In this document: positions 1,786 to 46,638 of the stretch, piece by piece
Numbering within the stretch: the stretch's first letter is position 1
How the letters are laid out: each line of letters begins with the position of its first letter
Assembly: GCA_016188575.1 (NCBI GenBank)
Contig: JACPHN010000043.1
Location: 1 to 47,065, forward strand
Reading direction: 5' to 3'
Length of the DNA: 47,065 nucleotides
DNA from: Candidatus Schekmanbacteria bacterium
Lineage (GTDB): Bacteria; CSSED10-310; JACPHN01
Position numbers and translations under genes: made by a program
The notes under the pieces: generated by a model
Database searches by the model: none
Seen by the model: only the letters and a program-made list of their open reading frames with translations
Told to the model about the DNA's origin: nothing

Positions 1786-1889
1786 AGGCATGCCGAACCA
1801 GGCGCTGCATCTGACCCGGCGGGAATGTAGGTTGTTGGGAGCTCATGGCTCCCCGCACCTGCCGGGCCGGCTGATGGAGACGAGGGCTC

Positions 1890-17250: not shown

Positions 17251-17287
17251 TATTATAGCGCATACTATAATGGCCCGCGCTATAATA
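17251..17287. promoter_or_regulatory. AT-rich inverted repeat (operator/promoter) in front of the ATPase gene
   Basis: TATTATAGCGC (17251-17261) and GCGCTATAATA (17277-17287) form a perfect 11-bp inverted repeat with a 15-base centre. The centre itself contains TATAAT (17266-17271), and a second TATAAT lies at 17281-17286. In this GC-rich region the element stands out as a likely promoter under an overlapping dimeric repressor. The start codon at 17294 is only seven bases away, so the transcript may be nearly leaderless. Confidence 0.6.
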
Positions 17288-17293
17288 TGCCGC

Positions 17294-21945: not shown

Positions 21946-21947
21946 GG

Positions 21948-24079: not shown

Positions 24080-25260
24080 GCGCCGACTCCGATGGCGGCG
24101 AGCCCGAAACCGTCTCTGCGGTCCTGCTCGCCGTCGCTGATGTTGCTCATCCACATCTGTTGCGCCCACCGCACGCGGTCGTCCGGGCGGCCGTGCAGGT
24201 CGAGCCAGTAGACGCTGCCCGCGCTGGCGGCGCGGCGTGTCGCCTTCGGCCGACGGGTCTCGAAGTCCCACCCGGAGACGGTCTCGGGCCGCGGCACGCA
24301 CGCCGCCACGAGTCGGGGCGTGACGCCGTGGCGTGGGGCGAGCAACTGTTCGCCCGCCGCTCCGGGCCGCCATCCGGCATAAAACAGCGCGGGCGTCAGG
24401 AGCACGAGGCGCACCCGCGCTGCCTCCCCGCGCTGCTTCTTCAGCCAGTCTCGAACCGGTTCGGGCATCCGCGGCAGCTCGAGCTCGGTCGCCCGGTGCC
24501 ACTGCACCAGCCGCCGCTCGCCCCCCGCGGGTGCCATCCCCTCGCGAACCGCGCGCCGCCTCCCCGCGATCTCCGTCTCGGGCACGTCGACGAGCAGCGC
24601 CAGCGGGCGAGCCGCCCCCCAATTCACCTCCCCTCGCCTGCGCTGGGAGGTAGGAGGGGCCGCGAAGCGGAGCCCCACGGTCTCGAACAGCATGCCTTCC
24701 GCCGCCGTCCCGCTCGGCCCGATCGCGACGTGCACCCGGTTTTCGGACGGCAGCGGTCTGATGCCTTCGCGGACAACGGCCGCGGCGTCGAGGCTACCGG
24801 GCGCTGCCAGCCACTGCGCGAAGTGTGCCCATCGCCACCACGCTGGCAGCTCCCGCGGGCCCTTGCCCGGCGGTGCCTCCCCGGCAGGGAGCCCCACGAG
24901 CTGCAGCCCGCCGATGTCGTCGGTCGCGGCACCGTCCGGCAGCTCGATGGGGCGCACCGACCGCGCCTCGATTCGCCCGTTGCGCGCCAGCAACTGGCAA
25001 TCCCGCGGCGCGGGCGCGAGCGCCTCGTTGGCCTCCGGGTCGGCCAGCAACGGCCCTCGTATGCCCGCCAGACGCAGCTCGTCGAGGTGTCCACCGAGCG
25101 CGAACGCACCGTCCTCGTCCGCGCCGAGCCGCGTCCGCGCCAGCCCCGCAACCGTGGACGGGTAGGGAAACGGGATGGTCCGGCTCTCGCTACGCCCGCG
25201 GTTCGGCCGGCCGTCGCGGACGACCAGCGGGTCGCGCGGTTCGATGAACCATAAGGTCAT
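24076..25260 (-). CDS. cmr3: Type III-B RAMP Cmr3 (Cas5-like)
   Basis: A 394-residue protein. The N-terminus IEPRDPLVVRDGRPN (6-20) and FPYPSTVAGLART are Cmr3 hallmarks; the C-terminal part has ETVSGWDFETRRPKATRRA and YWLDLHG. Cmr3 holds the 5' tag of the crRNA next to Cas10. The insertion APPTSQRRRGEVNWGA (about residues 200-216) is encoded by a copy of the dispersed palindromic element and interrupts an otherwise conserved region without breaking the frame. It starts with a four-base overlap on the cas10 stop. Confidence 0.93.
   Translation of the reverse strand: MTLWFIEPRDPLVVRDGRPNRGRSESRTIPFPYPSTVAGLARTRLGADEDGAFALGGHLDELRLAGIRGPLLADPEANEALAPAPRDCQLLARNGRIEARSVRPIELPDGAATDDIGGLQLVGLPAGEAPPGKGPRELPAWWRWAHFAQWLAAPGSLDAAAVVREGIRPLPSENRVHVAIGPSGTAAEGMLFETVGLRFAAPPTSQRRRGEVNWGAARPLALLVDVPETEIAGRRRAVREGMAPAGGERRLVQWHRATELELPRMPEPVRDWLKKQRGEAARVRLVLLTPALFYAGWRPGAAGEQLLAPRHGVTPRLVAACVPRPETVSGWDFETRRPKATRRAASAGSVYWLDLHGRPDDRVRWAQQMWMSNISDGEQDRRDGFGLAAIGVGA
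24626..24659 (-). repeat. dispersed palindromic element inserted in frame within cmr3
   Basis: CACCTCCCCTCGCCTGCGC followed by TGGGAGGTAGGAGGGG is a degenerate copy of the palindromic element. It is translated on the minus strand as PTSQRRRGEV inside Cmr3. Confidence 0.5.
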
Positions 25261-27113
25261 GATGTCACCTCCTCGCCCGCCTGTTCGGCGGCGCGCGCCA
25301 GCAGCGCGGCGACGTACAGCTCGCGCCCGAGCGCCTCCGCCGGATTGTCCTGGCCGTCACCTCTGAGCATCTTGCCCAGCTCCTCGAGCGTCTCCTTCGC
25401 GAGCGCTTCCCGTCCGTGGCAGGCGCGCTTGCGGCCGAGAATGCGCTTCGCCTCGGAAATCTGGATTGCCCTCATCGCCTTCCGGTCCTCGCCGGGCTCG
25501 ACGTGCTCGAGCAGGCGCGCGAGCCCCGCGAGCTCGTAGCCGGCGCGGTCCGGCACCGCTTCGAGGCGATGGAGCGTCGCGAGCATCTCCAGCCGCGCGA
25601 CGAGCCCTGCATCTACTTCCCACTTGCCGTGGACAGAAACCGCTGCCCCGCCGCGTTTTTTCACGATCACCGCGAGCGCGTTGCGCCCGGCATCGTCCTT
25701 CGCGGTACGTTCCGCCCGCCGCGCCAGCGCCAGCGCCTCGTCGAGCGGCATGAGATGGTGCGCCACCGCCAGTCCCACCGACAGCGTCGGCGCGTCTCCA
25801 TCCTCCGCCTGCCAACCGTCGAGCGCTTCGCGAAACGTCTCGGCGAGCCTCGCCGCACACGCGACCGCCGTGTGCAGCGGCACCAGCGCGAGCACGTCGT
25901 CGCCGCCGGAGTAGATGAGCCCGCCGTGGCACTGTTCCACCACCGCTTCGGCTTGCCGGGCGAAGCCGTCGAGCGCCAGCGACAGCTCCCGGTGGCTGGC
26001 GAAGGTGCGCTGAGCGTCGATGACCGCGCCCATCTTGTCGCCGTCGCCGAGCAAGATGGCGTAGTAGGGAACCGGCTCGCCCCGCCTCGCGCAGCGCAGG
26101 AAGCGCCGATACGCGCCATGCACCTGCTCGTAGGCGGTCTGCAGGCCAAGCTCCTCGAGCTCTTCCTGTAGGCGCATGGGAAACAGCACGGCGCCGTCGA
26201 TGCGGCCGAAAAACGACCGCCTCCTGGTGCTCTCCGGCAGGTCCGCAAGCGCTCCGCAGTCGGCGAGCGCGGCCGTGAAGCGCGCCCACTCGGCCGCGAG
26301 CTCGCCGCCGCGCTGCTGCTCGTCCCGTTCGACACCTATCATGAACGGCAGCGCCGCTACGTGCGAGGTGCTGGGGAAGCGTTGCCGCGCGCCGTCCTCG
26401 GCAGGCACGCCGTGGCGCTTGAGCAGCCCGACGCCGCACAGCCGCTCGCTGCCGTGCACGCCATAGGAGCGCCGCAGCCGCTCGCCGCGGGGCGTATCGA
26501 AGAGGCTCTCGTCGAGCACCGACTCGCGCACGCCGTCGAGCGACGACTTCGGCACGCCCGCCTTCGCCCAGGCTGGTTGCGACCACAGCTTGGTGTTCTT
26601 CCGCGCCGCCATGAGCCGCTCCGCTTCGGTTCTCGCCCGCGCGTATCTGTCGTCTCCGGGTCGCTCCGGCACCGACACCCAGCAATACTCGATGAGCGCG
26701 TCGACCTGGGCCTCCGCGACCTGCTCGTGAAAGTGCCGGACGCGCTCGGGGTCGCCGCGGCCGACCTGCGCGAACGCCGCCTGACGCAGCTCCTGCAGTC
26801 GTTCCTGGAGGGCGCGTTGGCCGGCCTCCGCCGCCGCCCGCGCCCGCGCTCCGTCGCCGGGGATGCGTGCAAGCAGGCGATTGGCCGCGGCGTTGTCCGA
26901 TCCTGGTTCGAGGCTCTTGCGCGCCAGCGCCCCCGGAAAGATCAGGCAGTCGATCGCGGCCGCGCCGCCAAGCGCGTCGACGATGCCGGCAGCGGCCGCC
27001 TTGCCGAGCTCGCTGAGCAACCACGACCCATACCAGAAATCCTGGCACCGCCGCGCCGCCGCGATGAAGTCCTGGACCGGTCCAATGGTGACGAGCAGCA
27101 ACTGATCGCTCAT
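25257..27113 (-). CDS. cas10: Type III-B Cas10 (Cmr2), HD-less, cyclase-competent
   Basis: A 618-residue large subunit. It begins MSDQLLLVTIGPVQDFIAAA, which in other Cas10 proteins lies after the HD domain, so the HD nuclease is absent and single-stranded DNA cleavage is not expected. The palm domain has ILLGDGDKMGAVID (about 350-363) and the cyclase core IYSGGDDVLAL with GGDD at 403-406, intact for making cyclic oligoadenylate from ATP on target binding. Length is shorter than HD-containing Cmr2 (about 850-1000). It is the first gene of the operon with a clear promoter upstream. The first 49 residues match the remnant at 44779-44928 in 44 positions. Confidence 0.95.
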   Translation of the reverse strand: MSDQLLLVTIGPVQDFIAAARRCQDFWYGSWLLSELGKAAAAGIVDALGGAAAIDCLIFPGALARKSLEPGSDNAAANRLLARIPGDGARARAAAEAGQRALQERLQELRQAAFAQVGRGDPERVRHFHEQVAEAQVDALIEYCWVSVPERPGDDRYARARTEAERLMAARKNTKLWSQPAWAKAGVPKSSLDGVRESVLDESLFDTPRGERLRRSYGVHGSERLCGVGLLKRHGVPAEDGARQRFPSTSHVAALPFMIGVERDEQQRGGELAAEWARFTAALADCGALADLPESTRRRSFFGRIDGAVLFPMRLQEELEELGLQTAYEQVHGAYRRFLRCARRGEPVPYYAILLGDGDKMGAVIDAQRTFASHRELSLALDGFARQAEAVVEQCHGGLIYSGGDDVLALVPLHTAVACAARLAETFREALDGWQAEDGDAPTLSVGLAVAHHLMPLDEALALARRAERTAKDDAGRNALAVIVKKRGGAAVSVHGKWEVDAGLVARLEMLATLHRLEAVPDRAGYELAGLARLLEHVEPGEDRKAMRAIQISEAKRILGRKRACHGREALAKETLEELGKMLRGDGQDNPAEALGRELYVAALLARAAEQAGEEVTS

Positions 27114-27152
27114 TGCGTTGTCCTCTCGGTTTCGTCTATCGCCTGCCGACCG

Positions 27153-27181
27153 ACCCTAGGCCGCTGCCGCGCTCGTCGCAA
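27153..27181 (-). promoter_or_regulatory. promoter of the Cmr operon
   Basis: On the minus strand, TTGCGA (27176-27181) and TAGGGT (27153-27158) are separated by 17 bases, with the -10 ending 40 bases before the cas10 ATG. The same boxes, the same spacer and the same 40-base distance precede the cas10 remnant at 44928. That conservation in a decayed copy supports the assignment. Confidence 0.7.
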
Positions 27182-27187
27182 CCCGCG

Positions 27188-27841: not shown

Positions 27842-27945
27842 CACCTCACCTCCCCCGCTTGCGGGGGGAGGCAGGGAGGGGGCGCCTACGACACTTGTAA
27901 AGGAGCATCTCAAGAGATTCGACCGACGCCCGAGATTCGGCGGCC
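27842..27945 (-). repeat. dispersed palindromic element, copy B
   Basis: The hairpin core CCTCCCCCGCTTGCGGGGGGAGG (27849-27871), with about 70 adjoining bases, aligns by eye in reverse orientation with copy A at 3589-3690. A 14-bp inverted repeat, GGCGTCGGTCGAAT (27782-27795) and ATTCGACCGACGCC (27917-27930), flanks this copy. Confidence 0.7.
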
Positions 27946-34103: not shown

Positions 34104-35432
34104 TCAGACCGGCAGCATCGGAAAAGCCACCAGCTCCGCTTCGTCGAGCCCGAAGAACCGCAGCGCCTTCGGGAGCAGCCGCTCGAAGGTCTCGAGCCCG
34201 ACGTGGCGATACCCGTGTTCCCGCCAGCAATAGTTGCGCGCGTCCAAGATACCCTTGAGCTCCTGGCGCTGCGCCTGGTAGCGTTTGCCGTAGGCGTCCC
34301 CGTACTCGTCGAGCAGCGCGTAGGAGGCTTCCAGCGGGAGCTTCACGGTGACGCCGCCATCGTCCGAGTGCTTCTCCGAGAACGCCTCCCGCAGGCCACC
34401 GAGGCTGCTCACAGGGCACTTGCTGTTGTCGACTCCGTGGACGCTCAACAAGCGCCCACGCGCCAGCTTCTCGATGGCGGCATACAGGAGCATGACCCCA
34501 TCTTCGGGGTCGGTCTCGCGCCGAGCGCGGCGGCAGGCGGCGGCGCACAGATCCCGCGGAATGGCCAGACCGTCGATTCCGGAAAAGAGCTTCGACGCCG
34601 GTGCGCCGGGTCTTGCTTCGTACAGGTCGAAGCGGTGCCACTCGGTGTGCACCGCGTCGAGCCGCGCCGCGGCCGTTTCCAGAGCGGGAAGCGCGGTGGC
34701 GATCGGCGGGTGCCCCCCCGCATCTGCGTAGATGCGGAGCGCCGGGAGGGCCGCCTGCATCGCCTCGTGGGCCGGGCGGTAGCGCTGGCGGTCCCAGGCC
34801 GCAATGGCGCGGAAAAGCTGGCGGAGCGTGCCGGCGTAGGCGTTGCGCCCGTCGGCGCGCGGTTCGGGCACCAGCGCCAGCGCCGCTTCGAATCGGAGCT
34901 CGTTGAACGCCGCGATCGCCGCGCGGATGCGGTCCTCGGCGAGCTGTTGCCAGGGGTTCGGTTCCAGAATCAGCCTCTCGCGCCCGTCGATGACCACGCC
35001 GACGCCGCCCTTGGACCGCGCCTCCTCGTCGGCCGAACCGACGTAGGAGAAACGGGCGCCGCGATCGGCAAAGGCCAGCACCGCCGCTGCCGACATGACC
35101 TTGGTGCCGCCGGTGAAGTCCACGCACGCATCGGCGGGGTCGATGCCCCAGCGCTCGAGGATTTCGGTTACCCGCAGGCGCAGGGCCTTGTAGCATTCGT
35201 CGAGCAGCTCGGCGGACGGCGTCACCACGATTTCGAGGCCGAGGTGGTGGTAGTCGGGCGGCAGCTTCGGCAGGATGTCGGTTTCGATGGATCCCGCGGT
35301 CTGCGGCGAGGCGAGAAAGATCAGCTTGCGCGGGCGCTGCCGCGCAATGGAGGCGATGAGCGGCGCGGGTGCTCCGCCGACGGTGAGAATCATCGCGGCG
35401 GGTGCCGGCGCCCGAGACTCTGGAGGGGACAT
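34104..35432 (-). CDS. TIGR02710-family CARF-HEPN ribonuclease (Csm6-like)
   Basis: 442 residues. The N-terminal CARF domain has MILTVGGAPAPLIASIAR (14-31) and FLASPQTAG for the first loop, and ACVDFTGGTKVMSAAAVLA (102-120) for the second; this pairing defines the TIGR02710 (Cas02710) family. The C-terminal helical HEPN domain carries DARNYCWREHGYR, in which Arg399 and His406 give the R-x6-H ribonuclease motif. It should be a cyclic-oligoadenylate-activated RNase. It is the last gene of the III-D operon, 30 bases after the TIGR03986 RAMP. No truncation is seen. Confidence 0.88.
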   Translation of the reverse strand: MSPPESRAPAPAAMILTVGGAPAPLIASIARQRPRKLIFLASPQTAGSIETDILPKLPPDYHHLGLEIVVTPSAELLDECYKALRLRVTEILERWGIDPADACVDFTGGTKVMSAAAVLAFADRGARFSYVGSADEEARSKGGVGVVIDGRERLILEPNPWQQLAEDRIRAAIAAFNELRFEAALALVPEPRADGRNAYAGTLRQLFRAIAAWDRQRYRPAHEAMQAALPALRIYADAGGHPPIATALPALETAAARLDAVHTEWHRFDLYEARPGAPASKLFSGIDGLAIPRDLCAAACRRARRETDPEDGVMLLYAAIEKLARGRLLSVHGVDNSKCPVSSLGGLREAFSEKHSDDGGVTVKLPLEASYALLDEYGDAYGKRYQAQRQELKGILDARNYCWREHGYRHVGLETFERLLPKALRFFGLDEAELVAFPMLPV

Positions 35433-35462
35433 CGCTACTTCCTTTGAGGTGGTGGATCCTGG

Positions 35463-36569
35463 TCAGGCGGGCTTGAGCCGCCTACTGGAGGTCGCCCCGT
35501 CGTGAAACCACTGGAACGTCGGATAGCGAAAGTCGCGGGGGTCGCTCTCGTCGAACACCATCATGCGGCGCAGCGCGGCGTCGAACGTCGGGGAGCGCGT
35601 GGCGCGGAAGCGCGCGGCCTGCTCCGCGTGCCACGCGTCGAGCTCGGCACCCCGCAGATCCTGTCGCGGCACGCCGCGGCGGTAGCGCTCGGCGCCGTCT
35701 CCGACGATCGAGCTCTGGATGGCGATCTGGCACGACCCGAGGCCGACTGGCTTGCCGTGTCCCAGCTTGTGGCAGAGGTCGCCGCGCAGGCGAATGGTCT
35801 CCTCGCGCGTGCCGTTCCAACCGGTCACCGAGGTCGCCACGTCGCGTTCGAGCACCACGGCGTAGAGCATCATGGCGAGCTGTTCGGGGGCGAGCCCGAC
35901 GAAGCGGATGGAAAAGTCGAAGGCCGCTCCCGCCGGTGCAGGCTGTAGGGTCGCATTGGGTTTGATGCCGGCGTTCGGAGCCGCTGGTTTTGACATGCAC
36001 TTCGGTTGATGGTGGTAGAGCTTGCGGAAGGAGCCGGCGTCGCCCGGGTAGAACGCCTTGTGAGTCGGGTGTGGCGTGGCCATGTAGATCTCGCGCTGCT
36101 CCCACTTCGCCGGTGGCGGCGCCGTCTCCGCGACCAGCCGCGCGTCACCGATCGTGACGTGCCCCCGGTAGAGCGCGCCGGTGTTGCCGTGGCCGACGAA
36201 GCCGAACAGCGCGCAGACCGGGCACAGCGCCCTTGGATCCCGGCAGGCGTTTTTCCCTTCGGCCTTCTCGTCCGCCACGATCGCGCAACCGGGCGCCACG
36301 ATCTCCAGAAAGCTGCGCAGCATCCCCTTGAGCGAGGTTCCCGGAATGGTCGGCGTGCCGTCGTTCGCTTTCCAGAAGGCGCGGACGCTGCCCTGGCCAC
36401 CTCGCTGGTCCGCCACGAGCAACGCTGTTTTCGCCGTCAACCGGCATTCCAGGGTACCGGACAGCCCGGTCAGACGATGGTGGTAGGTGGGCGCCGACCG
36501 CGGTGGTGGGGAAGGGGCGCTCACCGGCACAAAGCGATAGGGGTTCCAGAACTTCTCTTTTTCCGGCAT
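35463..36569 (-). CDS. TIGR03986-family type III RAMP protein
   Basis: 368 residues. The N-terminal FWNPYRFVPVS (7-17) is the signature of TIGR03986, and IPGTSLKGMLRSF (75-87) is the RAMP glycine-rich loop. CRDPRALCPVCALFG (about 108-123) is a CxxC-containing RAMP motif that may bind zinc, and KLGHGKPVGLGSCQI near 283-297 is the second Gly-rich element. RAMPs of this family are Cas7-like backbone or capping subunits found with csx10 and csx19. It starts three bases after csx19 and precedes the CARF-HEPN gene. Confidence 0.85.
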   Translation of the reverse strand: MPEKEKFWNPYRFVPVSAPSPPPRSAPTYHHRLTGLSGTLECRLTAKTALLVADQRGGQGSVRAFWKANDGTPTIPGTSLKGMLRSFLEIVAPGCAIVADEKAEGKNACRDPRALCPVCALFGFVGHGNTGALYRGHVTIGDARLVAETAPPPAKWEQREIYMATPHPTHKAFYPGDAGSFRKLYHHQPKCMSKPAAPNAGIKPNATLQPAPAGAAFDFSIRFVGLAPEQLAMMLYAVVLERDVATSVTGWNGTREETIRLRGDLCHKLGHGKPVGLGSCQIAIQSSIVGDGAERYRRGVPRQDLRGAELDAWHAEQAARFRATRSPTFDAALRRMMVFDESDPRDFRYPTFQWFHDGATSSRRLKPA

Positions 36570-36572
36570 CGC

Positions 36573-37163
36573 TCACTCTCCCTCGCCAAACTGGAACGGC
36601 ACGAGCGCCTTCCAGCGGCAGAGCTGCAGCCCCTGGCCGGAGCGCCATTCCTCCTGTAGCAGCGCGACGCGCTCGGGGGCGTCGCCGTCGCCGTCGCCGT
36701 CGCCTCCACGCGCCTCGCCATCGCCAAGGCCGCCGGCCTCCGGCTCGTAACGCAGGCGGTGGGGAATCTGCTGCTCGAACCAGACCGGCTGCGACCCGCG
36801 CTCGAGCAAGCGACCCCAGAGCACCACCGGCGCCTCGGACCGCCGGCACCGCGCGAGCTCCTCGTCGCGCACGGCGAAGCTGGCGATCGCCGGCGGCGCG
36901 GCGTCTCCCAGAAATACCGCGCGCATGGCCTCTACACCATTTTTCGGATCCGCTCCGATCCGCCGCCAGCGCAGCTCACCCGCGCGGCTGAACAATCTCC
37001 CTTCCTCGGAATCCTCGGGCAGCGCCCCCGCGTGCCACCGGCGCAGGCGCCAGTCGCCCGCCGAGGTGCTCCACAACCACCAGCCTTCCCCGTCCCCGGC
37101 GAGCGCTTCCGCCACTGCGGCCAGCCGCTCCCGGTCGATATCCGCGCACCGCAGCACCGCCAT
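36573..37163 (-). CDS. csx19: CRISPR-associated protein Csx19 (TIGR03984-like)
   Basis: 196 residues. WWLWSTSAGDWRLRRWHAG (28-46) followed by FSRAGELRWRRIG and VLWGRLLERGSQPVWFEQQI matches the Csx19/TIGR03984 pattern. These single-domain proteins accompany subtype III-D effector operons and bind near the complex base. Near residues 150-162 a GCC-GTC run (36680-36706) encodes a GDGDGDGD simple repeat that looks recently expanded. It sits with 3-base gaps between two RAMP genes. Confidence 0.75.
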   Translation of the reverse strand: MAVLRCADIDRERLAAVAEALAGDGEGWWLWSTSAGDWRLRRWHAGALPEDSEEGRLFSRAGELRWRRIGADPKNGVEAMRAVFLGDAAPPAIASFAVRDEELARCRRSEAPVVLWGRLLERGSQPVWFEQQIPHRLRYEPEAGGLGDGEARGGDGDGDGDAPERVALLQEEWRSGQGLQLCRWKALVPFQFGEGE

Positions 37164-37166
37164 CGC

Positions 37167-38129
37167 TCACGCTCCCGCGCGCGCGTGCGCCCGCTGCCCC
37201 TCGACCGTTCCGCGTTCCTGGAGAAACGCCTCCAGACCTGGCACCAGTGGATCGAGCTGCGCTCGCCACTGCCCGGTCACGTCGACCACGTAGCGGATGC
37301 CGCGCCGCTCGCCGGCGGGCAGATCGGGCTGCGACCCGGGCCTCCACTCCGACAGCGCGTACGCGTTCCGCGTGGCCGGTTCGCAGAGCTGGCCGATGCC
37401 GGCGATGCGCTCCTGTGGCCGCAGGTAGCTCAGCTTCAGCGAATCCACCTCGGCCTTCACCGCGCCGAGGCCGCGGCTCGTCCCGGAACCGATCGCGAGG
37501 ATCCCGTCCGCGAAGTCCGCGAGCACGAGATCGAGCGCCGCGAGCTGCCACAGCTCGAAGTTGTCGATGCTGATTTCCGTCTCGAAGGCGCCTCCCTGCA
37601 CGACCACCTGATCGAACTTCTTGCCGCTCGCCGCGCCACCGGTGAAGCGGTCGATGGCGACGTTGTCGCGCAGCTCGGCCACGGGCTTCGCCTCGCCCGC
37701 CTTCGGGTAGGCGTCGGAGATCCGGATGCGGCCGATGAACCGCAGCGAGCCGAACAGGCGGCATGCCGCGCAGGCGGTGCGATACGCGGTGACGCTATCG
37801 ATGGCGGCCCCGCCTCTTCTCGCCGCCTCCAGACGATGGCTGCAGCCGATCCGCCGGTCGTTTCCATCCGCTGCAGCTTCCGCGCGCTCCAGATACGGTT
37901 CGCAAACGCTGTCCAGATGGATCGACCGCGCGATGCGCTCGACGTGCGAGCGGATGACCCCTTTCAGCGACGAGCCCGGGATGAAGAGCACTTCTTCGCC
38001 CGACCGATAGGTCGTCACCGGGGCCGCGTCGGGGCCGTGCACCGTCGCTCGGCCCGATTTCACCAGGAACGGGCCGTTCGGGCGAATGGTCAGCTTCGCG
38101 TTTACGTGGCAGAGCCAGTGCTTCAGCAT
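37167..38129 (-). CDS. Cas7-like type III-D RAMP (Csx7/Csm3-like), third in operon
   Basis: 320 residues; the ATG at 38129 follows GGAGG and overlaps the upstream stop. It has LTIRPNGPFLVKSGRA (13-28), then GPDAAPV with Asp34 in the position of the Cas7 catalytic Asp, VLFIPGSSLKGVIRSHVERI (47-66), a zinc-like CSHRLEAARR...CAACRLFGS (about 96-127), and SGTSRGLGAVKAEVD near 236-250. These are the hallmarks of the SSO1426/Csx7-type RAMPs that build the III-D backbone. It should bind crRNA and possibly cut target RNA. Confidence 0.85.
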   Translation of the reverse strand: MLKHWLCHVNAKLTIRPNGPFLVKSGRATVHGPDAAPVTTYRSGEEVLFIPGSSLKGVIRSHVERIARSIHLDSVCEPYLERAEAAADGNDRRIGCSHRLEAARRGGAAIDSVTAYRTACAACRLFGSLRFIGRIRISDAYPKAGEAKPVAELRDNVAIDRFTGGAASGKKFDQVVVQGGAFETEISIDNFELWQLAALDLVLADFADGILAIGSGTSRGLGAVKAEVDSLKLSYLRPQERIAGIGQLCEPATRNAYALSEWRPGSQPDLPAGERRGIRYVVDVTGQWRAQLDPLVPGLEAFLQERGTVEGQRAHARAGA

Positions 38130-38956
38130 GCGACACCTCCCAACCGCGCGGCGATCTTCGCGCCGGTCTGCTCCAGGAAAGCCCGGACGTCCACAACTTG
38201 CCACTGCCGGTTCACGAGGAAATCTTTGCGATGGTGGGGGTCGCCGAGATTGACCTCCTTCACCTCGAGCAGCTCGGCGGTTGCGTGGCCGAGCCCGCGG
38301 CTGGTCGCGCCCCCGACCCGCATGCCGTCCAACCACTCGAAGAGCGCGGCGCCAAGGAGCGCGCGGTCCTTGTCCGTCGGGTAGACCACCTCCACCGTCG
38401 TTGACAGCTCCACGCCCGATGGGGCGACCTCGAAATCGTAGAGCAGCCCTTCGCGGGCGGTGCGGCTGTCGCGGTCGAGCACCACCCCGCTGCGTAGCTC
38501 GATGCGCCCGTTGCCGGCGCTCGCCGCAGTCAGGTGCGCGTCGGCGATGGCGATGCGCCCGGCCATCGCGGTGGAGCCGAAGAGCTGGCACACGTCGCAA
38601 GTGTGTTGCTCGATCCAGGTCAACGGCGCCCCGGAGCTCCGCCCCGCGGCCTCCGCGGCGAGCTCCGCCTGCAGGTCGCGGTCGTCGATATCGCCAACGC
38701 AGCTCACGCCGCTGAGCCTCCGGTCGAGCATGCAGGCGGAGAGGCCGAGCGCCGATGCGAGCCGCTCGCAGGTCGCGCGCAGGTTCCCCTTCAGGCTCGA
38801 GCCCGGAATGAAGGGCTGCTGGCGCGAGTCGAGCAGGACCCCGAGGTCGCTGGTCTCCCCCTCGCGGCCCGAGCCGATCCGCCAGGCCGTCTGAAAGCGG
38901 AGGGCGAGTGAGATTCGCAAGCGATGCAGCGGTTGCTTTCTCGTAGGGCCGATCAT
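38123..38956 (-). CDS. Cas7-like type III-D RAMP
   Basis: 277 residues from an ATG at 38956 (GGAG upstream, ATGA overlap with the preceding gene). RISLALRFQTAWRIGSGREG (14-33) is the first RAMP strand and loop, SDLGVLLD with Asp37 is a likely catalytic position, and FIPGSSLKGNLRATCE (49-64) is the glycine-rich loop. HTCDVCQLFGSTAMAGRI (about 125-142) is the Cys-containing element and VGGATSRGLGHATAELLEV the C-terminal one. A longer upstream open frame only mirrors the neighbouring gene. It is one of at least three Cas7-type backbone subunits in this operon. Confidence 0.87.
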   Translation of the reverse strand: MIGPTRKQPLHRLRISLALRFQTAWRIGSGREGETSDLGVLLDSRQQPFIPGSSLKGNLRATCERLASALGLSACMLDRRLSGVSCVGDIDDRDLQAELAAEAAGRSSGAPLTWIEQHTCDVCQLFGSTAMAGRIAIADAHLTAASAGNGRIELRSGVVLDRDSRTAREGLLYDFEVAPSGVELSTTVEVVYPTDKDRALLGAALFEWLDGMRVGGATSRGLGHATAELLEVKEVNLGDPHHRKDFLVNRQWQVVDVRAFLEQTGAKIAARLGGVAC

Positions 38957-39435
38957 CTGTTCATCTCCTCCGGACTGGCCAACAGATACTGCAGTCGCGT
39001 GCAGAAGCTCTGCGCCCACGGGCGCACGAGCTGGCGCTGGATCTGGCGGATGCGCTCCGTGAGCTCCCGTTTGTCGGATCTCGACAGGTCTTTGTTTCCG
39101 GACCGTCCTTCGGGGTCCGCGATCGAGGCGGCGACATCCCAGAGCGTTGGGTCGGCGGCGGTGGCACCGTTCTTTTCCTCCATCGTCGCCTTGACCCGCT
39201 CCCAGAGCTTCCTGACGTTCTCGTCGAGCGTGGCGCGCTCGAGCTGCTTTCTCGCGAGCTCGCCGACCCTCTGGGGTGCCGACAGCGCGAGCTGTGCGAG
39301 CCCCGAGAGCTGGGACGTGAGCTTTGGGCGGCCCCGCACCTCGTCGAGCAGTTTTTTCGCCTGCCGTCTGGCCATCGGAGCGATCCGTTCGTCGACCACC
39401 CGGTCGAGCCGTGCAGGTGTCGGGAGCTCGCTCAT
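38953..39435 (-). CDS. small helical protein of the III-D operon
   Basis: 160 residues, start at 39435 with ATGA overlap to the preceding gene. It is predicted all-helical and basic (MARRQAKKLLDEVRGRPKL, ELARKQLERATLDENVRKLW, RELTERIRQIQRQLVRPWAQ). No Cys cluster or catalytic motif is seen. Its place between the Cas11-like gene and a Cas7-like RAMP suggests a structural or small-subunit role. I do not recognise a named family. It and the 156-residue neighbour may together replace a single Cas11. Confidence 0.65.
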   Translation of the reverse strand: MSELPTPARLDRVVDERIAPMARRQAKKLLDEVRGRPKLTSQLSGLAQLALSAPQRVGELARKQLERATLDENVRKLWERVKATMEEKNGATAADPTLWDVAASIADPEGRSGNKDLSRSDKRELTERIRQIQRQLVRPWAQSFCTRLQYLLASPEEMNR

Positions 39436-39902
39436 CGGCATGGCCTTCCCGGCACGGACTGCCAGTAGAGGTAGGCGGCGACCATGCGCCGGATCCAGGA
39501 GCGGGCGATGTAGATCGCCACATCGAAGTGCTCGTCTTGCTTCTCCGCCTGGTTCGCGAGCTCCTTGGCCTGTTTGCGGATCTCCCCGAGGCGCTCGAGC
39601 ATCAGGTCGCCGAAACTGCAGCGACCACGGGCGGTGCCCTCGAGCTGCTCGCGCCACAGCGATTCTTTCTGGGTTTCGCGGCCCAGGCGGCCCATGATGT
39701 AGTCTTCGATGTCGGCGAATCGCGCTCCCGACATCGCCTGGACCTGCAGGCCGCGAAGCTGGGACATGACTTTTTTGGCGATTTGGTCATCGGTGCCCCG
39801 GCCGATCTGCTCGGCGAGCCTTTGTCCGAGCTGCATGGGCTGCTCGGCGTGCTCGTCGAGATAGCGGTCGGCCTGCTTGCGGCTTTCGGGGGAGAGATTC
39901 AT
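39432..39902 (-). CDS. small helical protein, candidate Cas11/Csm2-like subunit
   Basis: 156 residues, almost entirely helical: SRKQADRYLDEHAEQPMQL, ADIEDYIMGRLGRETQKES, ERLGEIRKQAKELANQAEKQ and the C-terminal VAIYIARSWIRRMVAAYLYW. The size and the C-terminal aromatic/Arg helix are as in Csm2-type small subunits that line the inner filament of type III complexes. It is coupled by four-base overlaps to csx10 before it and the 160-residue gene after it. The identification as Cas11 is by size, fold expectation and position only. Confidence 0.6.
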   Translation of the reverse strand: MNLSPESRKQADRYLDEHAEQPMQLGQRLAEQIGRGTDDQIAKKVMSQLRGLQVQAMSGARFADIEDYIMGRLGRETQKESLWREQLEGTARGRCSFGDLMLERLGEIRKQAKELANQAEKQDEHFDVAIYIARSWIRRMVAAYLYWQSVPGRPCR

Positions 39903-41146
39903 CTGGCACCTCCTGGGTGCGAGCCTGGAGCGGCGGGGATGGCCGCGTCGAGGTGGAAGCGATCGCAGATGGAGACCGTGCCGAAGCCTTCCTCGCGACG
40001 CAGGCCGACGCCGTGCTCGGCGAGCGCCACGAGCTCGGCGGCGATTCCCGGCCACTGTGCGGCGGGCACGGTGTATGCGAACACCGAGCCGGAGAGGATG
40101 CCCATGTCGTCTTGCCGCGGAAGCTGATGCGCGACGTTCCAGCCGCGGACGAGCTGCAGCCGCGTGCGGGCGTACAGCGGGCGGATCCGGTCCGGGGGTG
40201 AGTCCCAGCGGTCGAGCGCCGGCAGCCACGGGATCGAGACGGCGGGATCGTTGGCGAAGCGCAGCACCTCGTCGACGAGGATGGCGCCGTTGGGGAAACC
40301 GAGCGTCAGGACCCGCTCGCCGGAGCGACGGGCGGCGGCGGCGAGGTCGCGAGCGGTGGCTTCGTAGTCCGCGGCGGATGGCGCGGCGAGCGTTTCGCGG
40401 AGTTTCAGGCACACCTTGCCGCGCCCGCGGCTGCGGGAGCGCCCGATGCGCACGATGCCGCCGAGGTCGCCGAGCAGGGCGTCGAAGTCCGCACGCGCCG
40501 CGTCGCCGAGCTCCACGACGCCTCGCAGCACGATCCGTGTCGGCGTCGGCTGGCGCGACGGCGCGCCCGCGTCGCCCGCGTCGCCCGCGATCGCCTCCTC
40601 GCTGGAGAAATCCGCGATGGCCTCCTCGCTGAAGAAGATGCTGTGGCGCGCGGCGCCCGTGTCGCGATCGATGCCGACGTGCATCGCGGTGGCCTTGGGG
40701 GCGCTGGTGCTCTTCGGGCCGGTAGAGGTGCGGTCGTACGCTTTCCCGAATGGTTTGAGCGGCTGGCCGCAGCCGGGCCGCGGGCACTCCTCGCGGCCTT
40801 CTCCCTCCGGGGCGCGCAGCACAGCGACGAGCAGATCCACGACGCCGTGCTCGTCCTGGCCGGAGAACCCGGGAGAGCGTTTGCAGCTCGCCGCGGTCAG
40901 CGGTGGCACGTGCAGGCCAGTGCGCAAGGTCGCCCAGCGCGCCTGCTGGGCGTCGAGGAACAGGCGTCGAAATGCCGCCTCCGCGGGTGTGCCTCCGAAC
41001 CGCAGGTAGGCCCCGGCGAGCGCGCCGCGCAGGGTCGTGCCGGGGATGCAGTCGAGGCAGTCGGACCGCTGCGATTGCCGGTTTCCCTTGAGGACCAGCG
41101 GCGCGAGCAGCTCCGCTTCGAGAACGATTCGGTTTCGAGTGCTCAT
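39899..41146 (-). CDS. csx10: Type III-D RAMP Csx10 (Cas5-like)
   Basis: 415 residues; the ATG at 41146 follows GAGGAGGAGGCGC. IVLEAELLAPLVLKGNRQ (7-24), then SDCLDCIPGTTLRGALAGAYL (29-49), is the Csx10 N-terminus. A CPRPGCGQPL element (about 140-150) is the family's zinc site, and GRSRSRGRGKVCL (about 259-271) is a second Gly/Arg-rich RAMP loop. The C-terminus has EHGVGLRREEGFGTVSI. Csx10 takes the Cas5 place at the 5' end of the crRNA. A short internal duplication (about 40600-40640) encodes SEEAIADFSSEEAIA. Eleven bases separate it from the upstream RAMP. Confidence 0.9.
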   Translation of the reverse strand: MSTRNRIVLEAELLAPLVLKGNRQSQRSDCLDCIPGTTLRGALAGAYLRFGGTPAEAAFRRLFLDAQQARWATLRTGLHVPPLTAASCKRSPGFSGQDEHGVVDLLVAVLRAPEGEGREECPRPGCGQPLKPFGKAYDRTSTGPKSTSAPKATAMHVGIDRDTGAARHSIFFSEEAIADFSSEEAIAGDAGDAGAPSRQPTPTRIVLRGVVELGDAARADFDALLGDLGGIVRIGRSRSRGRGKVCLKLRETLAAPSAADYEATARDLAAAARRSGERVLTLGFPNGAILVDEVLRFANDPAVSIPWLPALDRWDSPPDRIRPLYARTRLQLVRGWNVAHQLPRQDDMGILSGSVFAYTVPAAQWPGIAAELVALAEHGVGLRREEGFGTVSICDRFHLDAAIPAAPGSHPGGAR

Positions 41147-41157
41147 GCGCCTCCTCC

Positions 41158-42054
41158 TCAGTCGGCCGCCAGCTCGTCGACGGTGTCCCACGTGGTCGGG
41201 TCGTCCCACGGCCCTTCGCCCACCTCGTGGGCCATTTCACAGATCGCGCGGAGCCGCGACGGCCCCCTGTCGGTTCGGACCTTCTCGAGGCGTCCGAAGA
41301 GGACGTGGGCATTCGCCAGCCCCAGCGGTCTGAGCAGCTCCTGGGAGGCGATCTGCTGCCAGTCGCCCCGCCCGCGTCGCGCGCGCAGAGACTCGATGGT
41401 CACCGCGCACCCCCCGGCGCCGGTGGAACGGTCGCCCCCCAGGCGGTCGAGCGTCTGCAGAGCGGCCACGAGGAGGCTCCACTCCACCGGCCAGGGCGAC
41501 AGATCCGGGACGGAAACCACGGACACCCGTTTGGGCGCGTGCACCGCGGTGATCGCGCCGCGCAGGGTCATCGCGGCGGCGTGCTCGGTGATGAACAGGC
41601 GGTGCTCTTTCGCCCGGCCGAGCGCGCGGTCGATGCTCACCCGGGTCAAGACCGGCAAGTTGTCGTCCGTGGGCTGCTCGGTGGGTAACAGGTTGTCCAC
41701 GAACAGGCAGTCTCCCGCGAGGCAGGTTCCGAACAGACGTTCCGCGAGGTTGCCGCCGGCCGCGAACCCTGCCCGCCGCCGGGCGGCCGAGGCGTCGGCG
41801 ACATGGGGGTCGGTCGCCTCGCATCCCAGCGCCAGCGCGATCTGCTCGCACCGATTGCGCAGCAGACCCTTGACGTGCGAGCCCATTATCATGGGCTTTT
41901 TGTCGGCCGAGCGCAGCACTGCGCGGTCGGCCGCTCCCCGCGACTCCCCGCTGCCCGAGTGCCAGCGATCGGCGAGCGCCACCGCATACTGAATGTCCAG
42001 AATATATGGCGGCGCGGCGACGGATGCGCGCGCCGCCGACTTCGTCTCGATCAT
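41158..42054 (-). CDS. Cas7-like (Csm3-like) type III-D RAMP, second in operon
   Basis: 298 residues from the ATG at 42054, which overlaps the cas10 stop (ATGA). VALADRWHSGSGESRGAADR (25-44) is the first RAMP loop, with Asp43 a candidate catalytic residue, then PMIMGSHVKGLLRNRCEQI (54-72). It ends with an acidic tail, WDDPTTWDTVDELAAD. It is a backbone subunit of the III-D complex and may cut target RNA. Compared with the other two Cas7-like genes it lacks the Cys pair, and its Gly-loop has Met-Gly in place of Pro-Gly. Confidence 0.85.
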   Translation of the reverse strand: MIETKSAARASVAAPPYILDIQYAVALADRWHSGSGESRGAADRAVLRSADKKPMIMGSHVKGLLRNRCEQIALALGCEATDPHVADASAARRRAGFAAGGNLAERLFGTCLAGDCLFVDNLLPTEQPTDDNLPVLTRVSIDRALGRAKEHRLFITEHAAAMTLRGAITAVHAPKRVSVVSVPDLSPWPVEWSLLVAALQTLDRLGGDRSTGAGGCAVTIESLRARRGRGDWQQIASQELLRPLGLANAHVLFGRLEKVRTDRGPSRLRAICEMAHEVGEGPWDDPTTWDTVDELAAD

Positions 42055-43592
42055 CTCACCAACTGGTAGCATTCGTAGAGCTCCGTGAAGAACGTACCGG
42101 CACCGCTGCCGAAGGGGGGCAGGCCACCGCCGCAAAGCTCGTCCACCGCGTCTTCGAGAAGTCCTCGGTGGCTATCCTTCAGGTGCGCGAGCACCTCGAT
42201 GGCGCGAAACTCGGCGGCGCGGCGCGTCGGGGCCATCGCGGCGCCGGCGAGCGCCGCGGCCTTGCTGTTCGGGAATTTTCCCTGGCGCAGGTTGCTGGCG
42301 AGCTCCAGCAGCGTTTTCAGCTTCGCCGGCTCGTACGGGCGCAGGGTCCGGAGAAAGGACCCTGTGTTTCCCTTCGCGGGGCCATCGAAAACAAACTCGG
42401 TCTTGCGAGCTTCCGTGACCTCGCGCACCATGGAGCTCTTGACGATCTGGAAGTCGACGCGCGCCTGTGTTCGCGGATCGCTCGCCCCGGTGGTGCGCGC
42501 CGCGTCCTTCTTCGCCGAATGGAGGAGTTGCTCCGCCTGATCGAAAAGCAAGTGAAAGGGGTGGCGGGCGCGTCCGACGGCGACCCCGACGGAGATGCTG
42601 AAGCCGTGGCGACACTTTTCCCGGAGCCAGGGAGTCCCGTCCTTCGCCACCGCGCGCCCGGAGCGGCGTTGAAACGCCTCCGGCAGCTCGGCCGCGAACC
42701 GCAGCGCCGCGCTGGCGGGGAGCACCATGACGACGTCGTCTCCGCCGAGCAGCAGCGGCAGGGCCTGCAGGTCATGTTCGCGGATCACCTCGTAGCTCGC
42801 CTCTCGAACCGAGTCGTCCACGATTCTTGAGAACGCCCGGTAGGACTCCTTGTCGGGAATGTCCTGCACGACCTTGCCCATGGAGTTGCCATCCGCGTAG
42901 ACGACTCCGATGTAGCCATGCCGGCCCGAGCTCAATTCGCCGACCTCGTCGAGGGTATCGCAGGGGGGCCATCCGACCGCGTCCTCGAAGGCGCTCCACA
43001 AGTGGCTGTGCGCGGCGCCCGGCCGGCGAATCTCGTGTGCCTTCGCGAGCTTGCGGCGGGTGAGCTCGGATACCCAGCGCACGTCGTCGCCGCCCTCGGG
43101 GCGAGCGATGCCGGCGACGTTGGCGCACACGCGCGCCGGCCGAGCGCCGAGGCTCGCGCACTCGCGAACCAGCGGGGCGGTGGCGACGGCGGCGCGCACC
43201 GGCGCGGCCCACCGGCGGCGGCGCAGGTCGCGGTGCGCGGCAGCCACCGCTGCCTTGTAGCCTTGCCCGTCCAACCTGGCCAGACCGTAGACGAGCGCGA
43301 TGCCACCCGCAAACACCTCGTCGACATCGCACGCCACCCGCACCAACCCCTCGTCGAGGCGCTGCTCGTCAGCGCCGCCCGCCTCCAGCACGAGCTGACC
43401 ACCGCCGCCGTTCGCGTAGACCTCCTCCACCGCGGTCGCCCGCGGCAGGTGCCGGCGGATGCGCTCCACGAGCTCGTCGCGATTGAACGCGTCGAGTAGC
43501 GCGCTGGCTCCTTGTATCTCGCGCAGCGTATCAGTGGCGAAGACAAACTCCTTGATTCCGGGGAAGTCGATCACGACTACATGTTGCGACAC
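42051..43592 (-). CDS. cas10: Type III-D Cas10, HD-less with GGDD cyclase motif
   Basis: 513 residues, started by GTG at 43592 after GGAGGAGGAAGC. It opens MSQHVVVIDFPGIKEFVFAT, the first palm strand, so the N-terminal HD nuclease is absent. Later are HGYIGVVYADGNSMGKVVQD (about 226-245), the metal-binding Asp of palm domain two, and LLLGGDDVVMVLPAS with GGDD at 283-286, intact for cyclic oligoadenylate synthesis. The following HGFSISVGVAVGRARHPFHL and helical C-terminal domain D4 complete a Cas10 of the short, csx10-associated type. First gene of the III-D operon. It is clearly distinct in sequence from the III-B Cas10 of this window. Confidence 0.93.
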   Translation of the reverse strand: MSQHVVVIDFPGIKEFVFATDTLREIQGASALLDAFNRDELVERIRRHLPRATAVEEVYANGGGGQLVLEAGGADEQRLDEGLVRVACDVDEVFAGGIALVYGLARLDGQGYKAAVAAAHRDLRRRRWAAPVRAAVATAPLVRECASLGARPARVCANVAGIARPEGGDDVRWVSELTRRKLAKAHEIRRPGAAHSHLWSAFEDAVGWPPCDTLDEVGELSSGRHGYIGVVYADGNSMGKVVQDIPDKESYRAFSRIVDDSVREASYEVIREHDLQALPLLLGGDDVVMVLPASAALRFAAELPEAFQRRSGRAVAKDGTPWLREKCRHGFSISVGVAVGRARHPFHLLFDQAEQLLHSAKKDAARTTGASDPRTQARVDFQIVKSSMVREVTEARKTEFVFDGPAKGNTGSFLRTLRPYEPAKLKTLLELASNLRQGKFPNSKAAALAGAAMAPTRRAAEFRAIEVLAHLKDSHRGLLEDAVDELCGGGLPPFGSGAGTFFTELYECYQLVR

Positions 43593-43936
43593 GCTTCCTC
43601 CTCCTCCCAGAGCTCTCGATCATGCCTGCGAAGTCCAGCGATCACTGCATACCGCGATCTCGGTCCGCGCGCAAGAGCAAGCAAAGACTGCACCTCATGA
43701 AGCGGTATCTTGCAGTTTTCCACTCGACCCCGCAAGCAGATGATGCACCCAGAGAGAATGCCTGGTTTCTCCCCGGACCGTCTTGCATCTGGCGTGCCAT
43801 GCCGCAGAGAATGGGCGGAGGCCAGAATGACACCGATATCAGACGCTGCCGCGGCTGCGAGGATAAGGAAGATCACAACAAACTTTGTGCCAATGGCAAG
43901 GCAATACGTGCAGGCAGGTCTTTGGTACCTGTTCAC
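43577..43936 (-). CDS. possible small membrane protein overlapping the III-D cas10 start
   Basis: An open frame of 119 residues ends 16 bases inside cas10. It has an N-terminal hydrophobic segment (FVVIFLILAAAAASDIGVI, about 19-37) and a Cys-containing stretch (ILSGCIICLRGRVENCK), then a basic C-terminal part. Third-codon positions are much less GC-rich than in neighbouring genes, and no good ribosome-binding site is evident. It could be a foreign or decaying membrane gene coupled to cas10, or simply an open frame. Confidence 0.3.
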   Translation of the reverse strand: MNRYQRPACTYCLAIGTKFVVIFLILAAAAASDIGVILASAHSLRHGTPDARRSGEKPGILSGCIICLRGRVENCKIPLHEVQSLLALARGPRSRYAVIAGLRRHDRELWEEEEACRNM

Positions 43937-43975
43937 CGCTCCCTGCTTGCGAGGAGGGCAGAGGGGGAGAATGGG
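43930..43975. repeat. dispersed palindromic element, degenerate copy
   Basis: GTTCACCGCTCCCTGCTTGC followed by GAGGAGGGCAGAGGGGGAG resembles, in inverse orientation, the GGTGAACA-ended palindromic element at 2454-2493. The rest of 43937-44174 holds no supported gene. Confidence 0.45.
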
Positions 43976-44174
43976 AATGGCGCAACAGCGCGGTCACGCG
44001 AACGGGCGAAATCGAGCGCTGAAGGGTCCACGGGATTCCGGCGATCCTGCTCCAGTGCCCGCCGGGAAAAAGGGAAAACCGCCTCCAACCCGCTGAACCG
44101 CTCCCGCCACCAGACCACGAGCTGCTGGCACCGTGGCCGCAAAGCAGCGGCGGTGTCGAAATCGCGGTTGCGGT

Positions 44175-44296
44175 TCCTCGCCCGGCTGCTGCTGGTCGAC
44201 CAATAAATCGCCGCGCCGAACGTTCCAAGCCCCCCAGGGCCGGTCCGAATTCGTGAGCAGCGAGGTTCCGACGGTGGTGATCAGCAGTCTGGACAT
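44175..44296 (-). pseudogene. N-terminal fragment of an APE2256-type CARF gene
   Basis: From an ATG at 44296: MSRLLITTVGTSLLTN, then RPWGAWNVR. This aligns with MPRRLIATVGTSLLTN and RPWGGWNVR of the intact CARF protein at 19039-20118. The similarity ends after about 28 residues and the frame then runs into unrelated sequence. It follows the cmr6 remnant, so the relic keeps the cas10...cmr6-CARF order of the intact operon. Confidence 0.85.
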
Positions 44297-44297
44297 G

Positions 44298-44778
44298 ATG
44301 CTGGCTCCGACAGGGTGAAGGATGGCGTCCTCTCGTGGCTGATGCCCTACTGAGCCGCCATTGGCGGCGGGAGCTGGACGGCCAACAGCTTGTTGTGCTT
44401 CGGGTCGAGCTGCGCGAGGACCGGCGCAGGACGCTCCGGGATCGCGGCCTCGGGCGCGCTCGGCCAAAGCCCCGCGGAGCTGCTCGACGTGCTGCCTGGC
44501 GGTCGGTGCTCCGCGATGCCTGGCGGCGAGCCCAAAGAGCTCGTCCCGAAGCGCGTTCAACTTCTGCTCCGCCTCCCGCTTCGCTGGCGCGCTGGCGCGC
44601 TTGCGGCGCGCGGTGCCGCGTGCGCTGTCGCCGCTGCCGGCCGGTGCGGTTCGAGGCGCATGCGGCCGTAACCCGCGGCGGTTTTCGCCCCGATGCCTTC
44701 GACTTCCAGGCCCAGCTTTAGCCAGCCCGCCGCCGCCCGCGCCGAACAGGAGCTTCGCGAACGCCTCGGCGAAGCGTT
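44298..44778 (-). pseudogene. cmr6: C-terminal fragment of cmr6, frameshifted
   Basis: One minus frame gives GWLKLGLEVEGIGAKTAAGY and then GRM, as in residues 229-249 of the intact Cmr6. After a shift, EAEQKLNALRDELFGLAARH and TARQHVEQLRGAL match the helical segment that follows there (TELLALAGQHHG, TAKQHVEKLRDAL). The N-terminal RAMP part is gone, joined directly to residue 49 of the cas10 fragment. The relic lacks the PAKAGI repeats and C-terminal domain of the intact gene. Confidence 0.85.
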
Positions 44779-44928
44779 TCAGCCAAGCGCATCGACGATG
44801 CCGGCGGCGGCCGCTTTCCCGAGCTCGCTGAGCAGCCACGACCCGTGCCACAAGTCCCGGCACCGCCGCGCCGAAGCAATGAAGTCCTGGACTGGTCCGA
44901 TGGTGACGAGCAGCAACTGTTCGCTCAT
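44779..44928 (-). pseudogene. cas10: N-terminal fragment of a type III-B cas10
   Basis: From the ATG at 44928, 49 residues beginning MSEQLLLVTIGPVQDFIASA match the first 49 residues of the intact III-B Cas10 at 44 positions. A TGA follows at once. About 6 kb equivalent to the rest of cas10, cmr3, cmr1, cmr4, cmr5 and the front of cmr6 is deleted. The high identity suggests that the collapse was comparatively recent or that this stretch has been kept similar by recombination. Confidence 0.9.
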
Positions 44929-44967
44929 GTCCCGCTCCCTCAGACTGGTCACACGCCTCACCCGGCC

Positions 44968-44996
44968 ACCCTAGCCGGTACCGGCGCCCGTCGCAA
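44968..44996 (-). promoter_or_regulatory. promoter retained by the collapsed Cmr operon
   Basis: TTGCGA (44991-44996), a 17-base spacer and TAGGGT (44968-44973) lie 40 bases before the cas10 fragment, exactly as in front of the intact operon. It may still transcribe the short remnant. Confidence 0.65.
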
Positions 44997-45045
44997 ACCG
45001 CTCGCGCGCCTTCGACCCCCGGGGCCGCTTCGACCATGCCCGCGC

Positions 45046-46638
45046 CTATCGCGAACCGGCCGGCACGGCGTGTAGTGTGCGAATCTCGCCCCGCGGGATT
45101 ACCCGCGCCCTGCCGCCGACTTCGAGCACGACCTCGGCGACGCGTTCCTCGATGAGAAAGCCATCGACCAGTTTGCCATCGGTGAGCAGTGCTCGCATGA
45201 CGGGGCGCGGTGTCGCCGCGGGCGCTGCCTTCCCTTCGGTGCGCGGCGGCGTGGCCGTGGGCTCGCCGGCCCGGCTCATGGCGTCGCTAATGATTTGCTG
45301 GACGCGCTCTTCCGCGGCGGGTTCCGGAGTTGGAAAACCGTGCAGGGCCATCACGTCACCCATTCTCTGAGCAATTTCATGGGGATCCGGGGTCGCGGTG
45401 CTCGCCGCCTCCGCGAAGCTGACCTGGCAATCGAGGATCTCGATGCGCAGGTTTTCGACGCTGTATGCCGTCAGCCTCGAGTACTGGTCGGAATCGTCGA
45501 ACTGGTTGTCCTCAAAGTCGAACGGAGCCCGGCCCGTCGCTCCCGCGCCGAGGTCGGCGGTGCCATCGGTGAGGCGCGTCGTGAACAGCTCGTCGCCGAA
45601 CACGTTCTTCAGGCGGGCGGTCAGCTTCCACGCCTTGATTCTGCTGGACGAGGAGTTGCGGAGAACCAGGAGCAGGACGGCGTGCTTGCGGTCATATTTG
45701 TCTTCCTGCGTCGTGGTGTCGAATCTCGTGATCTCGAGCGGGCAATCCGCAGGCGCCGGCGGCGTCTCGGCGGCGGCCGGGGCGGCGACCGCCGATGCCG
45801 CATTGGGCGTGGCGGCTCCGGACAGGGTCGCGGACGGGTCCGCCGACCGCGGGCTCGCCGGGGCCGGGGCCGTCAGGTGCGGGATGCCGTACCTGTCGGC
45901 GAGCAAGCGTTGCTCGAGCATGGCGACGGTGTTGGCGAGGGTCGCGACGCGGGTGGACAGGAGTGCCTTGACCAGGCCTCCGGAGTACCTTTCGTCCTCG
46001 GCGCGGGCGGCGGCCAGAGCGGCGCGCTGTGCGGCCAAGTCCGCCTCGATGGCGGCGACTTGCGCGGGTTGCTGCTCGCGCGGAGTAGCGCCGGGAGCTA
46101 CGACCGCGAGATAAGGAATGCCGAAGCGAGCGGCCAGCAGACGCTGTTCGAGCATGGCGATGGTGTTGCTTACCATGCCCGCGCGCGCCGCGAGCAGCGC
46201 CTTCACCAGGCCGCTCTCGTAGCGGTCGAGCTCACTGCGCACCGACGCGAGCACGGCTCTCTGCTCGGCGAGCACCGCCTCGAGCGCGCGGGCTTGCTCC
46301 GGATTGGGCTCCGCGGCGGCGAGCGCCGGCCCCTCGCCCGCACAGGCGTCAGCCTGCCTCGTCTGGACTGCGGCGCGGCGGAAGCGCAGCATGGCGGCCG
46401 TGCTTCGCAGGTAGGCGACGCGCACCTCGGCGAGCGATTGGGCGAGCTCGCCACTGGTCGCACCTTCGGCCTGCGCTTCGGCGACCTCCTTGTCCACCCC
46501 GCGGATCGCTTGCTCCAGCTCGCCGAGCAGTCGGCGCTCCTCGTCGGTGTAAGGAAGCACCCAGGCGCAGGCCGCCACTACCCCGGTCAGCGCCAGCGCG
46601 GGGGCGAGCGCATGGTTTGGCCATCTCACGTGCTTCAT
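45046..46638 (-). CDS. lipoprotein-like exported protein with two coiled-coil repeats
   Basis: 530 residues from the ATG at 46638 (AGGAG upstream). The signal segment ALAPALALTGVVAAC ends in a lipobox-like VAAC at Cys23. The mature part is strongly helical: an Ala/Glu-rich coiled coil, then two copies of a 55-residue motif (RAVLASVRSELDRYESGLVK...AMLEQRLLAARFGIPYL and RAALAAARAEDERYSGGLVK...AMLEQRLLADRYGIPHL). A beta-rich domain follows from about 320 (LEITRFDTTTQEDKYDRKHA, FDFEDNQFDDSDQYSRL) and resembles domains that handle exposed side chains of secreted proteins. A C-terminal tail ends in VLEVGGRARVIPRGEIRTLH. I do not recognise a family. No neighbour suggests a job. Confidence 0.65.
   Translation of the reverse strand: MKHVRWPNHALAPALALTGVVAACAWVLPYTDEERRLLGELEQAIRGVDKEVAEAQAEGATSGELAQSLAEVRVAYLRSTAAMLRFRRAAVQTRQADACAGEGPALAAAEPNPEQARALEAVLAEQRAVLASVRSELDRYESGLVKALLAARAGMVSNTIAMLEQRLLAARFGIPYLAVVAPGATPREQQPAQVAAIEADLAAQRAALAAARAEDERYSGGLVKALLSTRVATLANTVAMLEQRLLADRYGIPHLTAPAPASPRSADPSATLSGAATPNAASAVAAPAAAETPPAPADCPLEITRFDTTTQEDKYDRKHAVLLLVLRNSSSSRIKAWKLTARLKNVFGDELFTTRLTDGTADLGAGATGRAPFDFEDNQFDDSDQYSRLTAYSVENLRIEILDCQVSFAEAASTATPDPHEIAQRMGDVMALHGFPTPEPAAEERVQQIISDAMSRAGEPTATPPRTEGKAAPAATPRPVMRALLTDGKLVDGFLIEERVAEVVLEVGGRARVIPRGEIRTLHAVPAGSR

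Follow-up and report, generated by a model that had tools for sequence, protein, structure and literature searches.

In myxobacterial species, CRISPR-Cas systems are lost stochastically between strains (PMC11237760). The locus described here has the loss of a CRISPR-Cas system in common with these myxobacteria; in contrast to them, pieces of the lost system remain, and a parent-like intact operon lies on the same contig, which permits a direct comparison of pieces, reading frames and control regions. A survey (PMC11229360) deals with genomes that carry several type III loci, and the present genome resembles these in holding two III-B operons and one III-D-like operon across the window (the whole stretch of 47,065 nt analysed here) and the genome; unlike the present case, the passages of the survey considered here are not concerned with dead copies. 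Little literature was found on decayed cmr operons.

The intact type III-B (Cmr) operon of the window ends in a CARF gene of the CARF7-DUF2103 type. Relatives from Myxococcota, Chloroflexota and other groups share the order cas10-cmr3-cmr1-cmr4-cmr5-cmr6, mostly without this CARF gene. A further stretch of the window (44996–44195, minus strand), next to two CRISPR operons that look functional, contains a promoter-like element, the start of cas10, a piece of cmr6 and the start of a CARF gene in the original operon order. This remnant is very probably a dead paralogue of the adjacent III-B operon that lost its middle and is now inert. The features are as follows.

19039–27113, minus strand: intact III-B operon of cas10, cmr3, cmr1, cmr4, cmr5, cmr6 and CARF (Pfam, NCBIfam, PADLOC)
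27153–27181, minus strand: promoter-like element of the intact operon, matching that of the remnant
34104–43592, minus strand: III-D-like operon of cas10, Cas7/RAMP genes and Csx1, directly downstream of the remnant
44968–44996, minus strand: promoter-like TTGCGA-N17-TAGGGT of the remnant, an exact layout common to 27153–27181 only
44929–44967, minus strand: leader of 39 nt with a GAGGGAG Shine-Dalgarno-like stretch
44782–44928, minus strand: cas10/cmr2 codons 1–49, then TGA; 44/49 amino acids identical
44743–44781, minus strand: junction filler, weakly cmr4-, cmr5- or cas10-like
44596–44742, minus strand: cmr6 piece, intact residues about 222–270, end of the RAMP domain, GIGAKTAAGYGRM
44429–44590, minus strand: cmr6 continuation, intact residues about 262–316, in another frame
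44195–44296, minus strand: CARF gene codons 1–35, truncated; of the CARF7-DUF2103 type in the intact copy

The remnant and the intact operon have in common the order of the pieces, the promoter-like element and 44 of the 49 cas10 residues; the palm domain of cas10 and the genes cmr3, cmr1 and cmr4 are missing from the remnant, whose frames are all broken.

The preliminary description had read this stretch as a collapsed cmr operon with cas10, cmr6 and CARF pieces in operon order, and this core reading is well supported. When the remnant was aligned to the intact operon by blastn, four colinear same-strand blocks emerged, and the pairwise alignment revealed colinear similarity also outside the cas10 N-terminus.

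44782–45001 with 26967–27186: 82% identity
44646–44737 with 20801–20892: 68% identity
44475–44543 with 20659–20727: 74% identity
44217–44308 with 20036–20128: 71% identity

The stretch with the cas10 piece gave a tblastn E-value of 5.9e-29, and the identity of 44/49 residues described earlier was confirmed for codons 1–49. The cmr6 and CARF DNA blocks are only 68–74% identical, which would be a reason to regard the colinear blocks apart from the cas10 start as chance similarity in G+C-rich DNA. This reading, whose probability is negligible, was refuted by (i) whole-genome E-values of 1e-8 for cmr6 and 3e-6 for CARF; (ii) dinucleotide shuffles, 0/500 of which reached the real best score or the colinear chain score outside the cas10 block; and (iii) homologue-built profiles, which scored 76 bits for cas10, 37 bits for cmr6 and 26 bits for CARF (the last built from 6 sequences only) on the remnant, with controls near 0.

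Searches of the 9.2-Mb genome with the window Cas10 found, besides the remnant, only the intact copy, a copy on contig C85 and the III-D cas10; in the cas10 search of the genome contigs, a single Cas10 protein query gave no match and an alignment query matched. For cmr6, the sites besides the remnant were the intact copy and that on C85 only, and CARF matched the intact copy alone. All four remnant pieces were closest to the intact operon of the window when compared with 80 named loci and other fetched ones from other genomes; therefore, the parent was a paralogue or a close sister of this operon. A chimeric join of pieces from different cmr operons during assembly would be conceivable in a 275-contig assembly, with the remnant 2 kb from the contig end. 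However, the pieces match no other site of the assembly closely (82–89% for cas10, otherwise about 70%) and thus are not copies of assembled operons, and the breaks of the remnant have no long repeats at them; we consider such an artefact highly improbable.

What survives is the beginning of cas10, the last part of the cmr6 RAMP domain plus some of the tail, and the beginning of the CARF gene. Every reading frame is broken: cas10 runs into a TGA after codon 49, cmr6 changes frame near 44593 and has lost its stop, and CARF ends after codon 35; the remnant therefore makes no Cmr protein. Only codons 1–49 are left of cas10, and the Cas10/Cmr2 palm/GGDD domain is absent. Profiles built from 76–82 homologues found nothing above control for cmr3, cmr1 and cmr4 (Cas7) in 43600–45100, and the best match of the Cmr5 profile in this region, in the junction filler, was weak (2.2 bits). 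Pfam searches of the open frames of 43577–45037 revealed no alternative gene, and Rfam searches had no match in the window. Two open frames were rejected as genes. The 347-aa frame at 43994–45037 is considered a chance frame, as it spans three of the homologous blocks in differing frames and its codon GC is 0.78/0.65/0.66 compared with the 0.77/0.50/0.86 pattern of genes; a 119-aa frame before the III-D cas10 likewise lacks the coding GC pattern. No remnant-like stretch was found in relatives among 59–60 other genomes, including 7 from the same phylum.

The copy would have worked for most of its history, its middle would then have been lost through one or more illegitimate deletions, and what is left would now be inert DNA. 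Its promoter may still fire, with a transcript that would run towards the III-D-like operon and could encode at most a 49-residue peptide. That the cell could in principle make this short cas10 peptide speaks against a plain dead copy, and the filler together with the unequal synonymous divergence (described below) speaks against a plain single deletion in one uniform copy.

From its cas10 block to its cmr6 block, the remnant lacks about 6.07 kb that is present in the intact operon, in agreement with the previously proposed loss of approximately 6 kb. The single event proposed at the same time did not hold up equally well, given the filler, the cmr6 frame change and the cut in CARF. The filler of approximately 40 nt at the cas10–cmr6 junction has similarly poor matches to cmr4 (E-values of 0.003–0.017 in small searches), to the C-terminus of Cmr5 (2.2 bits) and to cas10, and more than one deletion is therefore possible. 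A further break lies at 44195, where CARF is joined to unassigned DNA upstream of the III-D-like operon. The shorter cmr6 tail of the remnant may reflect no loss at all, since the tail of the intact copy grew by a 75-nt insertion-duplication.

This insertion-duplication in the intact cmr6 tail consists of 37 nt (20333–20369), an insert of 38 nt (20370–20407) and the 37 nt again (20408–20444), the 2 repeats being identical at 36/37 positions. The insert is identical at 36/38 positions to the 5' coding part of the organism's own tpiA (C76:9839–9876) and lies antisense to tpiA in the cmr transcript. Contig C158, which also carries a cas1, contains a CRISPR array with 37-nt repeats and 35–39-nt spacers. 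The repeat and insert lengths in cmr6 both agree with this array, and the insertion site is unlike the C158 repeat (11/37 at most). Off-target spacer integration by Cas1-Cas2 is known from the adaptation literature. The cmr6 insert thus possibly represents an off-target (neo-CRISPR) integration of a self-derived spacer with site duplication by Cas1-Cas2, to judge from its lengths and its match to tpiA; the plain alternative is a templated insertion with duplication.

The substitutions between the remnant and the intact operon bear on the time of death. By codon position, the differences number 3/1/12 in cas10 and 4/5/20 in cmr6. The substitutions did not follow a neutral pattern, which would be expected only if the copy had died long ago; the third-position bias that persists in both genes indicates selection on the copy during most of its existence and a recent death. 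Most of the divergence would thus have arisen under protein-level selection, and death would be recent relative to the split of the two operons.

Synonymous divergence is distributed unequally along the remnant. Where both copies encode the same amino acid, the codons differ in 10/41 cases (24%) in cas10 compared with 35/58 (60%) in cmr6 and CARF together (Fisher 0.0005). The remnant may therefore be a mosaic, in which the promoter and the cas10 start came from, or were converted by, a copy near the intact operon, and cmr6 and CARF came from a more diverged cmr operon. Besides the unequal counts, the comparison of the intact and C85 copies points in this direction, as it revealed no general slowing at the cas10 5' end (0.53 versus 0.39–0.49), and so does a cmr1 scrap elsewhere in the window with similarly low divergence (7/30). 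By contrast, the leader just before the ATG is at chance level, and a conversion tract would consequently have to begin almost at the ATG; moreover, a constraint special to first genes is possible (the C85 cas10 is not a first gene), and the cas10 count covers 49 codons only. The mosaic is a tentative possibility, less likely than not. It is a refinement of the dead-paralogue explanation, not its opposite.

The -35 and -10 boxes with a 17-base spacer had been described as sharing one layout in both operons, and TTGCGA-N17-TAGGGT was indeed found in both; the exact motif has two occurrences in the 9.2-Mb genome, both upstream of these cas10 starts. The leader, described earlier as 40 bases, measures 39 nt from TAGGGT to ATG in both copies. 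Between the remnant and the intact operon, the boxes are identical at 12/12 positions, the spacer at 10/17 and the 39-nt leader at 11/39 (about chance), and on the upstream side the similarity reaches no more than a few bases beyond the -35 box. In 0.5% of the match-column permutations (0.005), two hexamers at 17-nt spacing were conserved at every position; this value gives an indication but is no clean test, the boxes having been picked in the preliminary description after their conservation was seen. The boxes fit the sigma-70 consensus at 4/6 and 3/6 positions with a spacing of 17, and a strict promoter scan reported none. Of the suggestion that the comparison itself is evidence for the promoter, the conservation of the boxes stood, while the poor consensus fit and the empty strict scan weaken it. 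The conserved boxes support an element that would have been under selection while both operons lived, and it is by this comparison that the remnant element is considered a putative promoter.

The III-D-like cas10 starts about 1.35 kb downstream of the promoter-like element on the same strand, which raises the possibility that the remnant promoter was captured and now helps drive the III-D-like operon. In addition to the shared strand and the conserved boxes (permutation 0.005), capture would be consistent with the lack of terminator-like sites in 43400–45300 and with the element being the sole loose TTG...TANNNT promoter-like match on this strand in 43593–45046. However, the boxes fit the consensus poorly, a long untranslated region lies between, and a lower-GC stretch of about 350 nt (56–59% GC) directly upstream of the III-D cas10 could hold a promoter of its own; this stretch is a more natural place for the III-D promoter than the remnant. 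Taken together, capture appears unlikely from the sequence features. That the collapse rewired regulation, with the kept promoter of the dead Cmr operon now supplying the transcription of the III-D-like operon, would likewise be distinctly unlikely. If capture were true, one defence system would have become the control region of another.

The two cas10 starts (26967–27113 and 44782–44928), each 147 nt long and 89% identical, are directly repeated at a distance of 17.8 kb. If they recombined, the III-D-like operon would be lost.

Two further scraps lie near each other towards the other end of the window.

1885–2082, minus strand: cmr1 scrap of two colinear pieces, 84% and 79% identical in nucleotides to 23018–23096 and 23390–23475
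3940–4173, minus strand: cas1 scrap, PF01867 positions 46–123, with a TGA inside, near the cmr1 scrap

The substitutions of the cmr1 scrap have no third-position bias. Together with the remnant, the two scraps indicate that more than one part of the CRISPR-Cas machinery was lost from the island, and the remnant belongs among several CRISPR-Cas fragments that system turnover left in this defence island. The remnant had been called that of a second Cmr operon; it is real, and the count was too low in view of the cmr operon on C85 and the cmr1 and cas1 scraps (1.9–4.2 kb). The C85 operon (about 39299–45944, locus L022) has the order cmr1, cas10, cmr3, cmr4, cmr6. No CRISPR array was found in the window. 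At 15780–18751, a CARF7-RelE-type gene on the plus strand overlaps the ATPase/DUF234 gene behind it, which has HTH domains. A G+C-rich element of 31–47 nt occurs in inverted orientation at 3646–3676 and 27852–27882 and also at C65:2304–2350, and may be a dispersed palindromic repeat.

The remnant is a new instance of an already known kind, a decayed CRISPR-Cas operon, and leaves the knowledge of type III systems unchanged. Wreckage of this sort is ordinary in bacterial defence islands, and this island holds more of it than was seen at first. The remnant is a fossil of CRISPR turnover with a living sister on the same contig. Setting the two side by side can show which parts have decayed and offers a comparative approach to a cas promoter from a phylum that has been poorly sampled.
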